A stretch of 64,000 nucleotides of DNA from Pseudomonadota bacterium (lineage in GTDB: Bacteria > Pseudomonadota > Alphaproteobacteria > Sphingomonadales > SMXR01), in contig JADFIA010000008.1 in the NCBI GenBank assembly GCA_022566895.1, positions 1-64,000 on the forward strand. Direction: 5' to 3'. Under the pieces are notes generated by a model. That model saw nothing but the letters and a program-made list of their open reading frames with translations, was not told where the DNA came from and searched no databases. Shown piece after piece: positions 3,632-62,849 of this stretch. The position numbers and the translations under genes were made by a program. Position 1 is the stretch's first letter. Each line of letters begins with the position of its first letter.

Positions 3632-4037
3632 CGGCGCGGTTTGGGGGCTTGAGAGGCAAAAGATATTGCCCTTGGAATCCTAAAAAAGCGCCTAGATGCC
3701 GCTTCAAGGAGGTCAGGGCATGCGTTAGCAGGGCGCCCTTTACGGCCAAATTCTTGAAGCTATTCTAGGTCATGACTGCGAAAACAATTGCAAGTCCCTT
3801 TAAATCATCGCTTTTTTTCTCTATATAAAGCCTGCCGGTTCGCCGGCTATGGCAATAAACGGTGCGCGAAATAGGCACTTCGGACCCGGGGGCAGTACCC
3901 GGCGCCTCCACCACAAGCCGCGATGACAAAAGATCGAGTGACGCGGTTTTTGCTGGGGGCGAAACAGGATCGACGGGTGTTGAAAGGCGTTATTTTTTGC
4001 CCGGTATGATTCCGCCGTAACGGGTCATTTCACAAAT

Positions 4038-4073
4038 GCCAACGAAAATGAGGCATTCGCAGTTGCTGCTTAA
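4038..4073 (+). other. tmRNA tag reading frame (ANENEAFAVAA)
   Basis: Inside the coding piece, GCC at 4038 is the likely resume codon. It opens an 11-codon frame reading A-N-E-N-E-A-F-A-V-A-A and ending at TAA 4071-4073. With the alanine carried by tmRNA the added tag would be AANENEAFAVAA. The small hydrophobic VAA end is the usual ClpX recognition element, and the AN.E/N start is the usual SspB-binding part. SspB is encoded 230 bases downstream. Confidence 0.88.
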
Positions 4074-4154
4074 TCGAGTCCCTAGGATTTGATAAGGCAA
4101 ATACGTGCGCGGCCCTGGGGTGAGCCGGGCAACAGAATCAACTCCCGCGGTTTG

Positions 4155-27280: not shown

Positions 27281-28458
27281 GCCCGGACCCTCTTTTTCCT
27301 TGCCTGATGCGCCGGAGGATTTTTCGTCTTTGGTTTGAACGCGGGATCGGCGGACTTTTCGAGCTTCGGCAAAAACGCCTCGACGATTTCGGCAAGTCGC
27401 TTGGTCGCGTCGGGCTTTGCCAATTCGAGGGCGGCCTTTGACGCAGTTCTTAGTTCGTGCGGCTTCGCGAAAAGTTTGATCAGCTTCTTGGCAAGATTGG
27501 CCGACGTAAATTCAGTCTCGAGTATGAGCCAGCCTCCACCGCTGGCGATCAGGGCTTCTGCATTTGAACGCTGGTGGTCATCGGTGGCTATCGACAACGG
27601 TACCAGGAGGGCCGGCCGACCGGCGGTTGTGACTTCGGCCAAGGTTGTGGCTCCGGCTCGTGAAATGACCAAATGAGCCCAACGCAGACGGTCGGGAAGA
27701 TCCTTGAAGAATGGGGCGATCTCGGCATGGATGCTAAAGGCGTGATAAATCTTCGCGACCCGTTCAATATCTTCCTGGCGGCACTGCTGGGTTACCTGAA
27801 TTCGCTGGCGCTGCGCGGCCGGCAACAGACTGATCGCCTGCGGAACAATATCCGAGAACACCTTCGCACCTTGGCTGCCACCCACGATCAACAGCCTTAG
27901 CATGCGGCTCTCCGAAATCGCCGGGTAGGGGTCCTTGCCAATCTTGGCGATTTCCTGGCGAACCGGATTTCCTGTAACTGCACATCTGTCTTGAGCCCGG
28001 GGCGGCACTCGCGCAGTTGGCTGAAAGCTCAAGGCAAGTGATTTTGCTGATGCGGCAAATAGGCGATTGACCCGCCCTAATACCGAATTCTGCTCATGCA
28101 AAACGAAGGGGATGCGCAAGAGTCGGGCCGCCGCCAGACCCGGTAAGGCAGGATACCCGCCAAATCCAACAACCATCCCCACCCGTTTGCGGCGCAGGAA
28201 CCGGACAGCTTCGTGAATACTCTTGGCGAGCAGGAGCCATCCCTTGATCCGGTCAATGCCGCCGCTCGATAGTGAAACGGCGCTTATAACTTCATGATCG
28301 ATGTCCCTTAAAAGTCCCGGGTATCGCAGGCCTCTTTGATCGGTCAAAAGGCTGACCGAGCGGCCGCGTCTCTTTAGCTCGCGTGCCAGTGCAGCCGCCG
28401 GGAACATATGTCCACCCGTGCCGCCGGCGGCTAGAAGAATATGTGTTCTTGTCCTCAT
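27277..28458 (-). CDS. murG: Lipid II synthase MurG
   Basis: Glycosyltransferase that adds GlcNAc to lipid I at the inner face of the membrane. 393 residues, GT-B fold: [18 protein letters not shown] near the N-terminus (lipid I loop), [38 protein letters not shown], and the UDP-GlcNAc-binding [22 protein letters not shown]. It has an unusual Lys/Arg-rich tail of about 25 residues ([14 protein letters not shown]) not needed for catalysis. Overlaps the ftsW stop by four bases. Confidence 0.97.
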
Positions 28459-29600
28459 CGACTTGGCCTGTCCTGTGTAGTCGGTAGTCTCTGACTTCGC
28501 GGCTTGCGGCGGGTCAGGGCCAAGACCAGCCCCATGGTTATGGCCAGCGCCAGGAGAGACGAGCCGCCGTAACTGATAAATGGCAGGGTCATCCCCTTTG
28601 AAGGCAAAACTCCCAGATTGACGCCCATATTGATCAGGGCCTGAAGGCCAAACAGGGACAAGAGGCCGCTGACTGCCAGGAGTGTAAAAACGTCTTCTTC
28701 GTCAAGCAGCCGCGCCAGGCCCCTGATAACAATGACCGCGAATAGACCGAGAATGACAAGGCAGGCCAGCGCTCCGAATTCCTCGCCGGCAACCGCAAAT
28801 ATGTAGTCGGTATGCGCATCGGGAAGGACACGTTTGACCAACCCTTCGCCGGGACCGGTGCCGAACAAGCCACCGGTGCGGAAAGCATTGAGTGCAGTGT
28901 CTATCTGGTATGTATCGCCCGAGGCGGGATCGAAAAAGATGTCGATCCGCCGCTGCACATGCGGAATTGCTGTATAGGCAACCGCCAGCCCTGCCACTGA
29001 ACCGAGCCCGAGCAAGGCCAGCCAGCCGATCGGCAGGCCGGCCAAAAGCAGCTGTCCGAGAAACACGCCCGATATCAGTACGCTTTGCCCGACATCGGGC
29101 TGCAGCAACAGGGCCGTTATTACAACGACAAAAAGCGCCACGGCAATCTGGCGACCCGGAAATTTCTGGTCCTCAAACGAGCCGGCAAGCAGCCAAGCTG
29201 AGGCAACGACAAAAGCCGGCTTCAAAAATTCAGAAGGTTGAAGCGTGAAATTACCAATCTGCAACCACCGATTTGCGCCCTTGATCTCAGGGCCGATGGT
29301 CAGAGTAAGTACGAGCAAGACGAATGCAGCCGGCAGCAACAAGAGCGACAAACGCCGTGCGTTCTGCTCGGACATGATCGAAATCGTTATCATGGTGCCA
29401 AATGAAATTACGAGGAAAGCCAGCTGACGCTTTACGAAATGGAAATTATCGAGGCCCAGGCGTTCGGCCACCGGCATACTGGCGGCCAACATCAAGAGAA
29501 ATCCCAACGCAAGCAACAAGAGAATGGCCAGCATCAGCCAACGGTCCACGGTCCACCACCAGTGTGCCAGAAGACTGTCATCTGCTCGGCCGAGAACCAT
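28455..29600 (-). CDS. ftsW: Septal peptidoglycan polymerase FtsW
   Basis: SEDS-family glycosyltransferase that polymerises lipid II at the septum together with FtsI. The 381-residue protein has about ten membrane helices. Family marks are GPEIKGANRWLQIG near residue 107, QPDVGQSVLI (the conserved catalytic Asp lies in this region), GTGPGEGLVKRVLPDAHTDYIFAVAGEEFG, and the C-terminal GMTLPFISYGGSSLL. Its start overlaps the murD stop by one base. Confidence 0.96.
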   Translation of the reverse strand: MVLGRADDSLLAHWWWTVDRWLMLAILLLLALGFLLMLAASMPVAERLGLDNFHFVKRQLAFLVISFGTMITISIMSEQNARRLSLLLLPAAFVLLVLTLTIGPEIKGANRWLQIGNFTLQPSEFLKPAFVVASAWLLAGSFEDQKFPGRQIAVALFVVVITALLLQPDVGQSVLISGVFLGQLLLAGLPIGWLALLGLGSVAGLAVAYTAIPHVQRRIDIFFDPASGDTYQIDTALNAFRTGGLFGTGPGEGLVKRVLPDAHTDYIFAVAGEEFGALACLVILGLFAVIVIRGLARLLDEEDVFTLLAVSGLLSLFGLQALINMGVNLGVLPSKGMTLPFISYGGSSLLALAITMGLVLALTRRKPRSQRLPTTQDRPSR

Positions 29601-42487: not shown

Positions 42488-43790
42488 ATGAGCAAGAAGA
42501 AGACGAGCAAGCAGAAAAAGGAGCCCGATCCAAAGGACCAGTTCAAAGACTGGCTCAAGGAAACTTGGGAAAGAGCCATTGAACCAGCCACCGATTCAGA
42601 AGTCTTCGACCCCCGATGGGTTATCGCCGAGCGAAATGTAAAACTGCTTATCAACCAGAAGAAATGGAAAAAGCATGTGGCTGCATTTGAAGAGCTAGTG
42701 CCCGTAGATGAGCACAAGAATTTTTTTATTCATTTCGATAATTCTGAAATAGATCATGGCAATTTTATCAGCTACCGTTTTCCGTGCGGTGTTTCCTTTT
42801 TCAGGGCCAAGTTCAAGAGCAAAATAGTGTCGTTTCGAGAGGCCGTATTTGCGGCTGGTGGAGTGGATTTTAGTGAGGCAGACTTTGACGCTGAAGATGT
42901 AAACTTCCGTGAGGCCAAGTTTTTGGGCTCGACGACAAAGTTTTACTCGACGAAATTTGGCTCTAGTTCGGTGAGTTTTTCTAAGGCAACCTTTGGCCGT
43001 GGATCCGTGTCATTTCTTAATTCTGATTTCGGCAGAGGAGACGTTTTCTTCGCTATGGCGGCCATCGAGTGTGAAGTTTTTGACATAAGTTTTTGTAAGT
43101 TTGGCGGCCGATTATTATTTCAAGGTGACTCTGAATCGCCAAGCTCAAGAATCTCTGGGGAGCTTCTAGCTCGCGGTATTCAGTTCCCAGCACTAACAAG
43201 TTTTTCTAATCGCGCTTTTGAAAAGGTTCCTAATTTTGTCGGCTCAACCTTTCTGGTGCCACCAGACCTCACGGAAGTTAAAGTCGCCCCCCCCCGAGAT
43301 GGAAGGGGCGTTGTGGCTCGCCGCGTTCAAACAATCGAAGAAAAAACGAGATGTCGCTTGTTACCGTAAGCTGAAATCAATGGCGATTGCTACTAACGAT
43401 CACGAAAAGGAACTTGAATTCTTTGCCCACGAGCTCAGATGCAAGCGCGGCCATGAGACCACGGGGTGGGCCAGTTTTCTCAACAGCCTTTTTGAACTGA
43501 CCTCCGATTATGGGCAGAGCATTTGGCGTCCGGTTCAGGGTTTGGCTTTTACATTCCTCGCCTTCTTTGGCTTCTATATTTGGGACGGTACGGAAGTTGA
43601 CGACGCATTTCTTGTATCCTTCTACGCCAGCTTGCCTTTCTTGAGGGTCCTAAACGACAGTGGCGTAGATTCCTGCGCTGACTGCGCATTTGACCCTGGG
43701 ATCCTCTTGGTTCCCCTACAAATGCTGTTCAGCCTTGCTTTTCTTTTTCTTTTGTTTCTGGGGCTCAGGAACCGCTTCAAGCTGAAGTAA
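42488..43790 (+). pseudogene. Pentapeptide-repeat protein with C-terminal membrane pair, interrupted by a frameshift at a nine-C run
   Basis: The N-terminal frame (42488-43369) starts after GGAGGA and encodes a lysine-rich head, then pentapeptide-like repeats (VDFSEADFD, VNFREAKFL, VSFSKATFG, VSFLNSDFG) forming a beta helix. At the C run 43287-43295 the protein leaves its natural continuation. Read with eight Cs instead of nine, the frame joins smoothly to a second part that stays open to 43790, giving AACYRRLK-like CYRKLKS, then NDHEKELEFFAHELR and two membrane helices (GLAFTFLAFFGFYIW and a Leu/Phe-rich one). That junction matches known pentapeptide/two-helix proteins, about 433 residues in all. 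It may be a pseudogene, a contingency locus or a sequencing error. The stop is two bases from the 3' end of rnpB. Confidence 0.75.
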
Positions 43791-43792
43791 AT

Positions 43793-44174
43793 GGGACCAG
43801 ATGGCCTCTAAGCCGGGTTCTGTGCGCTGACCAAAGTCAGGCGATGGCCATTCATCTAGGCGGACCGTTGCCGGCCCGCTCTGGCAACCTACCCGGAAGG
43901 CGACCCGGAAACCGGCCGTATGCCTTCCCTATTTGGTTTTGCTCCAGGTGGGGTTTACCCTGCCACCCCTGTTACCAGGGGCGCGGTGCGCTCTTGCCGC
44001 ACCCTTTCACCCTTGCCTGTGGCCGAAGCCCATCGGCGGTTTGCTTTCTGTGGCACTTTCCCTGGGATCGCTCCCGGCGGGCGTTACCCGCCACCCTGTT
44101 TCCGTGGAGCCCGGACTTTCCTCTCCCGCGGCCTTTCGGCCCTAGCGGCAGCGGCCATCCGGCCATCTGGTCCC
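43793..44174 (-). ncRNA. rnpB: RNase P RNA, type A
   Basis: Catalytic RNA that trims the 5' leader of tRNA precursors. The 382-base molecule starts GGGACCAGATGGCC, contains GAGGAAAGTCCGGGCTCC (the P4/J3-4 core), and ends with ACAGAACCCGGCTTA followed by GGCCATCTGGTCCC, which pairs with the 5' end to make P1. The internal hairpins have plain complementary arms. On the minus strand it is driven by its own promoter and converges on the frameshifted pentapeptide gene. Its 3' end is two bases from that gene's stop, so any terminator must lie inside that gene. Confidence 0.97.
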
Positions 44175-60894: not shown

Positions 60895-61131
60895 CTAGAG
60901 ATTCTCGATCTCTTCCGACAGCGTTCGCTTCTTGTCGGTTGCGATCCGCTCGAGCACTTCGACGCGCCTCTCCAATACCTCAAACTTCTCTTCGCCTATT
61001 TCGAGCCCACTGTCCTCCAACCATTGGTCCCACGCTCTCGCCGACCCATGCCGGCGCCGAACAAACTCCCGAAACAAGCCGAAAAAGAGCACGATCGATA
61101 CGATCGCAATTACAAATTCATATTTATCCAT
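60895..61131 (-). CDS. Small PspB-like membrane protein
   Basis: A 78-residue protein: a single membrane helix (EFVIAIVSIVLFFGLFREFV), a basic loop, and a coiled coil (FEVLERRVEVLERIATDKKRTLSEEIENL) like the C-terminus of phage-shock protein B, where it contacts PspC. No pspA, pspC or pspF is in the window, so it may belong to a different envelope-stress unit. First gene of the operon with fRMsr and gloA. Confidence 0.65.
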   Translation of the reverse strand: MDKYEFVIAIVSIVLFFGLFREFVRRRHGSARAWDQWLEDSGLEIGEEKFEVLERRVEVLERIATDKKRTLSEEIENL

Positions 61132-61383
61132 AAATCTACTTCCCTCCCAATCTGGTTACCAATCGCCAGCTTCAGACGTAGGATCGGCAACCCTGTTTCG
61201 CAAGCCGAAATGTGGCAATTATTTTCACGCCTTGCCAGCCGATGCCCGCCGGGCTTCTGCAAATACGTGCATTATTCGAATGATTTACTTGTTATATCTG
61301 TATTTCAAACCGGTGAGTGAAATTTACTCTCAATACGAATTTGAGTAATAAAGTAATAACACTTCCATGAATTATGAAATAAG
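61132..61383. other. Non-coding stretch upstream of the PspB-like operon
   Basis: About 250 bases, AT-rich toward the right, with no credible gene. It should hold the minus-strand promoter of the PspB-like gene. A GCCCG-C-CGGGC hairpin (61244-61254) and a small CTCAA/TTGAG dyad (61329-61345) are present; neither is clearly a terminator. Confidence 0.4.
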
Positions 61384-61419
61384 TTGACGGGTTTCTTGAT
61401 AATTTGTAGTCTTTATTTC

Positions 61420-61578
61420 AAGGACCGGCTGCGGCGGGTGCCTCATTCTGGGTTCGCCCATCAGGCCTTATTTGGTACAGCGAATTCGAGGCACCAACAG
61501 CCTTTCCGAAATAGCGAACCGGGGCGCGGACATCTTCCCCCTTTTAATGCCCCCTGTCCCGCGCTCCGGTAGCTTTTT
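61420..61578 (+). ncRNA. Candidate structured small RNA with its own promoter and terminator
   Basis: TTGACG at 61384-61389, a 17-base spacer and TAGTCT at 61407-61412 give a plausible promoter with transcription starting near 61419-61421. The transcript would fold strongly. GGTGCCTC-ATTC (61437-61448) pairs with GAAT-(2-base bulge)-GAGGCACC (61482-61495), closed outside by GGCTG/CAGCC (61427-61431 with 61498-61502). Inside sits TGGG-TTCG-CCCA (61449-61460), a UUCG tetraloop hairpin. A second, very stable hairpin follows and ends in five Ts, giving a discrete RNA of about 160 bases. The second hairpin's 22-base loop is C-rich (CTTCCCCC, GCCCCC), as in RNAs that bind ribosome-binding sites. 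A divergent 6S RNA is the main alternative. Confidence 0.5.
61514..61578 (+). terminator. Long-stem intrinsic terminator of the candidate RNA
   Basis: ACCGGGGCGCGGACA (61518-61532) pairs with TGTCCCGCGCTCCGGT (61555-61570) with one G-T pair and one bulged base; an outer GC/GC pair lies next to TTTTT (61574-61578). The stem is longer than a normal terminator and the loop is 22 bases, so it may also be a functional domain. Confidence 0.65.
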
Positions 61579-61683
61579 GCCCTGACTGTATCCAATCAGT
61601 TTCGATGATGGTTTTGACCAATTTTTGTTTTCCTGCTAGGCAATTGGGTTGGGCATTAACATTCGTTGTATGACGAGCCGGAT

Positions 61684-62169
61684 ATGACCGAGCCAATTAG
61701 CATTCGCTATGCGCAAGAAGCGGACGCGGCTCTGGTTCTTGAATTTATTTGTTCTCTGGCTCGGTTTGAAAAACTTGAGAACTTGGTTGAGGTCAATCTC
61801 AAAACTATCAGGGATGAGCTGTTCGACCCGGCAAGTCCTGCCCGATGCTTGTTGGCGTTCTCAGGCGAGGCACCGGTTGGCTTTGCGCTGTTCTTTTTCA
61901 CCTTTTCTACCTTTCTCGGCCGGCCCGGGATCTATCTAGAAGACCTTTTCGTTGTCCCGGAGGCGCGCAGCCGAGGGGTCGGCAAGCGACTTTTGCAGAC
62001 CCTCGCAAAAATAGCGCTGGATAGGAATTGTGGGCGCCTTGAATGGGCGGTCCTAGACTGGAACGACAGGGCCATCCAATTCTATGAGGCGCTGGGGGCC
62101 AGGCCGCAGGACGCGTGGACGGTATATCGGCTTGAAGGTTCGGCCCTGATGGATCTTGCTGGAGACTGA
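61684..62169 (+). CDS. GNAT-family N-acetyltransferase (diamine acetyltransferase-like)
   Basis: A 161-residue acetyl-CoA-dependent transferase. ISIRYAQEADAALVLEFICSLARFEKLEN and IYLEDLFVVPEARSRGVGKRLLQTLAKIAL (the acetyl-CoA pyrophosphate loop R-x-x-G-V-G) then RLEWAVLDWNDRAIQFYEALGA are typical of the SSAT-like branch acting on small amines. The order matches eukaryotic and bacterial spermidine/thialysine acetyltransferases, but the substrate is not certain. I start at the ATG at 61684; a TTG at 61666 would add six residues. Confidence 0.85.
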   Translation: MTEPISIRYAQEADAALVLEFICSLARFEKLENLVEVNLKTIRDELFDPASPARCLLAFSGEAPVGFALFFFTFSTFLGRPGIYLEDLFVVPEARSRGVGKRLLQTLAKIALDRNCGRLEWAVLDWNDRAIQFYEALGARPQDAWTVYRLEGSALMDLAGD

Positions 62170-62291: not shown

Positions 62292-62849
62292 ATGGTAACC
62301 AGGAGCCCCAGGCGAGACCAACTGGTATCGACCGCTTCGGAACTTTTTTATCGGCATGGTTTTCATGCGACCGGCATCGACACGGTTCTAGCCGAAAGCG
62401 GGGTCGCCAAAATGACCCTTTACAATCACTTCAAATCTAAGGAAGGCCTGATCGTCGCGACAATCCATGACCGCAGTTCACGAGTCATGAAGTGGATTGA
62501 ATTTGGGACTGCCTCGCGCGCCCAGACAGGGTTGGGCAAGCTTCTTGTTCTGTTCGACATACATGAAGACTGGTACAACAGCCCGAACTTCCTTGGCTGT
62601 TATTTCCAGCGGGTCTGTGCTGAGTTTCCTGATAGGAACTCACAACCCCATCGTGCCGCCGCAACTCATTTTTCAAAGCTGTTTGATTGTCTCAAGAACT
62701 GGGCCGAAGAGGCCGATCTCGGCACCCCCGCGGCGCGGGCCGAGGAGGCTCTTTTACTTCTCGAAGGGGCCACGGTGATGGCCCAGGCGACTGGAGCAAC
62801 GATTGCGGCGCGGCGGGCCCGCCGTTCTTTTGAAGCAACCTTGGGATAG
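62292..62849 (+). CDS. TetR-family repressor
   Basis: A 185-residue repressor: the N-terminal helix-turn-helix reads DQLVSTASELFYRHGFHATGIDTVLAESGVAKMTLYNHFKSKEGLIVATI. The effector domain contains GCYFQRVCAEFPDRNSQPHRAA with two cysteines (GC and VC), which could sense electrophiles, consistent with the NemR-like dyad upstream. The start codon lies only about three bases from the predicted transcription start, so it is probably translated as a leaderless message. Convergent with rpoD. Confidence 0.87.
   Translation: MVTRSPRRDQLVSTASELFYRHGFHATGIDTVLAESGVAKMTLYNHFKSKEGLIVATIHDRSSRVMKWIEFGTASRAQTGLGKLLVLFDIHEDWYNSPNFLGCYFQRVCAEFPDRNSQPHRAAATHFSKLFDCLKNWAEEADLGTPAARAEEALLLLEGATVMAQATGATIAARRARRSFEATLG

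Follow-up and report, generated by a model that had tools for sequence, protein, structure and literature searches.

Positions 61420-61578 (+) lie in a gap of about 550 bp (61132-61665) between a divergent 78-aa gene and a GNAT acetyltransferase gene, within a window (the whole stretch of DNA analysed) of 64 kb. In agreement with the original prediction, which described a 550-base region free of genes, this gap holds no convincing gene, in a genome where intergenic gaps are mostly short. The locus comprises the following features:

60895-61131 (-): 78-aa gene, divergent and upstream of the candidate RNA; no Pfam family; kept in five of seven family relatives
61374-61403 (+): overlapping alternative promoter-like site, ATGAAA-N18-GATAAT, 9/12 to consensus
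61384-61412 (+): weak promoter-like site, TTGACG-N17-TAGTCT (TTGACG at 61384-61389, TAGTCT at 61407-61412), 8/12 to the sigma-70 consensus
61420-61508 (+): 5' domain, a predicted nested hairpin (GGA/UCC, GGCUG/CAGCC, GGUGCCUC/GAGGCACC, GGGUUCGC/GCGAAUUC)
61513-61578 (+): terminator-like hairpin (AGC/GCT plus 15 pairs, one bulge, a 22-nt C-rich loop and TTTTT)
61533-61554 (+): C-rich loop UCUUCCCCCUUUUAAUGCCCCC, 22 nt, with a high unpaired probability throughout; presumed pairing seed
61666-62169 (+): GNAT acetyltransferase gene (ATG at 61684; Pfam PF00583), downstream of the candidate RNA
62292-62849: TetR regulator gene (Pfam PF00440), after the GNAT gene

In several genomes of the family, the 78-aa gene adjoins a gene for a GAF protein (free methionine sulfoxide reductase-like), and in others a tRNA.

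The genes just upstream of 61420-61578 are on the opposite strand, and the nearest upstream gene of the plus strand is several kb away. Since the hairpin and its T tract are on the plus strand, they would terminate no known mRNA, which implies a transcript of their own and makes an orphan transcription unit the simplest reading. The promoter originally proposed for it, TTGACG-N17-TAGTCT, has the sequence and spacing that had been described, with a TTGACG element matching the consensus at five of six positions. However, its -10 element matches TATAAT at only three of six, and the site falls below the threshold of a consensus promoter scanner, which lists only the overlapping alternative here. 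About one promoter-like site of 9/12 quality is expected by chance in the gap.

The predicted RNA folds with an MFE of -67.4 kcal/mol into two hairpin domains, which are independent according to the folding of successive prefixes. The 5' domain (MFE of -38.0 kcal/mol when 61420-61512 is folded alone) is formed in these prefixes by about 90 nt and is closed before the terminator is made, behaving like that of a simple, independently folded sRNA. Within this domain, the GGCTG/CAGCC pairing that had been noticed joins 61427-61431 with 61498-61502. A claimed 12-base complement is recovered as GGTGCCTC/GAGGCACC (61437-61444 with 61488-61495), but with just eight contiguous pairs, and the inner TGGG-TTCG-CCCA tetraloop is absent from the MFE structure, where GGGTTCGC pairs with GCGAATTC; the TTCG tetraloop belongs to an alternative fold that is not chosen by the energy model. 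The second domain (-28.8 kcal/mol for 61513-61578) does contain a GC-rich 15-pair stem next to TTTTT, formed by 61518-61532 with 61555-61570, carrying one bulged C at 61558 and extended by AGC/GCT. The T tract (61574-61578) directly abuts the hairpin, and is found on its plus strand side only. At 22 nt, the loop exceeds the usual size in intrinsic terminators.

The same-strand order of a structured domain, a terminator and a gene is also that of terminator-type attenuators and riboswitch leaders. The element could accordingly be a cis-acting leader of the GNAT-TetR genes, with a 5' domain that responds to some signal and thereby controls whether RNA polymerase halts at the terminator, whose T tract ends (at 61578) 105 bases before the GNAT start. 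Between the terminator and GNAT there is only a poor promoter, TTGACC-17-TAGGCA, and this mechanism stays in play because 61424-61438 can form a duplex of 12 pairs (-20.9 kcal/mol) with the 3' arm of the terminator, which might serve as an antiterminator. However, this duplex falls far short of the stability of the terminator (-32.0 kcal/mol), the antiterminator-type fold is not formed by the folded prefixes, and, when forced, this fold reaches -52.0 versus -67.4 kcal/mol for the terminated structure, about 15 kcal/mol worse. Unlike established leaders, moreover, the element matches no riboswitch in Rfam and is not kept with the gene. GNAT orthologues with 51-60% identity were found in three of seven family members, none with such an element upstream of GNAT, and one of them (G003) keeps the GNAT-TetR pair while the RNA is absent; a search of genome contigs for GNAT returned distant generic homologues only. 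An attenuator is, on this evidence, unlikely. The RNA is likewise absent from G005 and G007, which keep the block of glyoxalase, GAF and 78-aa genes.

The structures go beyond chance, as had been claimed, with z-scores, each against 200 shuffles, of -3.8 when 61415-61580 is folded and of -4.1 when only the terminal hairpin (61517-61578) is. In the register of the original prediction, which was chosen and not fixed, z reaches -4.8, beyond all of the 1,596 windows of a tiled scan (160-nt windows in fixed register along the two strands of the 64 kb, with 30 shuffles per window). At the nearest tiled window (61441, +), z is -3.0; among the 138 intergenic windows, only two are more extreme, and both of them overlap the region next to the RNase P RNA gene. 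By energy, the candidate ranks fifth among 428 tracts of four or more T with an adjoining hairpin.

The most extreme intergenic fold of the tiled scan, considering both strands, is found at 43601-43760, immediately 3' of the gene for RNase P RNA (43793-44170, -), of which it is probably the terminator. A tmRNA gene of the permuted, alphaproteobacterial type also lies in the window (3795-4146, +).

The most striking spot of 64 kb had been picked, so that its z-score is a selected one. The hairpins might correspond to no RNA gene at all: they could be remnants or chance structures in a gap that evolves neutrally, or else a terminator that stops stray transcripts. Such an origin would fit with the promoter-like sites expected by chance in a region of this kind, and with the lack of conservation in any of the genomes searched. 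It accounts less readily for two strong tandem helices, the second of them abutting T5, in a 550-bp gap of a genome whose gaps are mostly short, and we consider it possible but rather doubtful.

With regard to conservation, a search of Rfam at the gathering score and at E values up to 10 gave no match save eukaryotic chance matches. The proposed check against 6S and alphaproteobacterial small-RNA models therefore matched no family, and none of the curated Rfam models of known alphaproteobacterial sRNAs matches the candidate. BLAST searches with 421 bp in 60 relatives and with 166 bp in 385 genomes of the class returned the candidate itself, besides chance matches of 20-36 bases. Similarly, a two-copy (single-sequence) covariance model of the candidate, R1, recovered the candidate alone in 40 relatives and in 401 genomes of the order; further R1 matches at 15-20 bits were rejected as chance-level, their alignments skipping or breaking much of the structure. 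A plasmid collection gave no match either. The candidate is consequently a single-copy element by both BLAST and R1, and, as no homologue was found by either method among about 800 relatives, which include no second member of its genus, structure and gene are without evolutionary support.

A divergent 6S RNA had been offered as an alternative identity, and in a genome without a detectable 6S RNA this alternative deserved a real test. RF00013 was found in 55 of 61 genomes of the order, and R2, a covariance model built from 18 6S sequences of the order, finds 6S RNA at 108-147 bits in G004, G003 and G053, the last of which is missed with Rfam. Even R2 detects no canonical 6S RNA here or in any of the three genomes of the sister genus g6; a 20-bit R2 match in G006 was rejected, as it falls inside a long coding frame. 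In G004, the 6S RNA is located between zapA and the 5-formyltetrahydrofolate cyclo-ligase (5-FCL) gene, upstream of the ligase, and these two genes abut in this genome (G000:C10 near 28386-28922) and in G006. It is likely that this sub-lineage has lost or relocated its 6S RNA, a claim limited by completeness (86% here, 66-93% in g6). In G007 (C79, about 300 bases upstream of 5-FCL), an insert of about 290 bases, GC-rich, full of palindromes and resembling a repeat element, lies between zapA and 5-FCL, occupying the site of the 6S RNA in other family members.

If 6S RNA had been relocated, the candidate might be its divergent descendant: the usual zapA-5-FCL site is closed, the length of about 160 nt is that of the 6S RNAs of order relatives, and the predicted ACCGG/CCGGT complement exists and could form, with its neighbours, a closing stem between the 5' and 3' ends. 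However, forcing this stem costs about 15 kcal/mol relative to the two-domain fold, which lacks a central bubble; the near-invariant GGGAGCTGTCCC and CCCACCT motifs of the 6S core have left no trace in the candidate; and the candidate, with no match in Rfam up to E 10, scores 5.7 bits with R2, which is noise compared with the 108-147 bits of true members. In addition, a genuine 6S gene may sit in the unassembled part of the genome. The likeness to 6S RNA (RF00013) is thus one of length and a possible closing stem, and this identity is very improbable. It would be just as surprising if, in a lineage without canonical 6S RNA, the candidate had taken over a global role, either binding RNA polymerase or acting through its C-rich loop as a general repressor of translation.

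On the best available reading, the element is a small RNA gene of about 160 nt that stands alone, ends at an intrinsic terminator and is confined to the genus or species; we assign this reading a probability of roughly 0.5. The general marks of an sRNA gene, namely an orphan terminator and a promoter in a gap together with a structured transcript, are all predicted here, with the promoter the weakest of them. Besides the folding, this reading draws on the composition, the single copy, the lack of an Rfam match and the presence of an Hfq gene in the genome. The original description as a probable small RNA holds as far as these elements go, but is unproven, as no relative carries the candidate. 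From a weak promoter of the sigma-70 type, RNA polymerase would begin near 61410-61420 and pass first through the stable 5' hairpin domain, and transcription would stop at the hairpin and U tract, at 61578.

Such an RNA would probably act in trans, most likely through base pairing. Its C-rich loop, in the terminator hairpin, is the sole long stretch predicted to stay unpaired, so that it would be the natural seed, as for GsrN of Caulobacter, and the part most likely to contact G-rich mRNA leaders. GsrN is a precedent both for the pairing of a C-rich loop with G-rich targets and for a narrow distribution in BLAST searches, where its homologues are limited to one family (PMC5869019). GsrN is a small intergenic RNA of an alphaproteobacterium that exposes a C-rich loop and has a hairpin as intrinsic terminator, features that are predicted for the candidate too, but the C-rich loop of GsrN is found in its 5' half and that of the candidate in the terminator hairpin, and GsrN is about 106 nt long, under the general stress sigma factor, versus about 160 nt for the candidate (PMC5869019). 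No sequence relation was detected between the two. ChvR, also from Caulobacter and regulated by ChvI-ChvG, is another trans-acting alphaproteobacterial sRNA, whose stem-loops pair near a start codon (PMC6237742), a mode of action that the candidate may share.

The loop had also been likened to those of anti-ribosome-binding-site RNAs. Positions 61533-61554 are indeed C-rich and unpaired in the ensemble, but the role suggested by this likeness finds no echo in the pairing energies: against 57 start regions (genes of the window only, with guessed starts), the mean duplex energy is -11.1 kcal/mol versus -12.4 kcal/mol for shuffled loops, and 192 of 200 shuffled loops pair equally well or better. 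C content alone therefore explains the resemblance, and a C-rich-loop RNA of the anti-Shine-Dalgarno type, with specific complementarity to ribosome-binding regions, is not supported for this locus.

A lineage-specific sRNA gene, ordinary in kind, is hence plausible but unproven at 61420-61578. If transcribed, it would be a further orphan small RNA in a little-studied alphaproteobacterial lineage of the uncultured type. The apparent loss of 6S RNA, here and in the sister genus, is a by-product of this analysis that lends itself better to testing.
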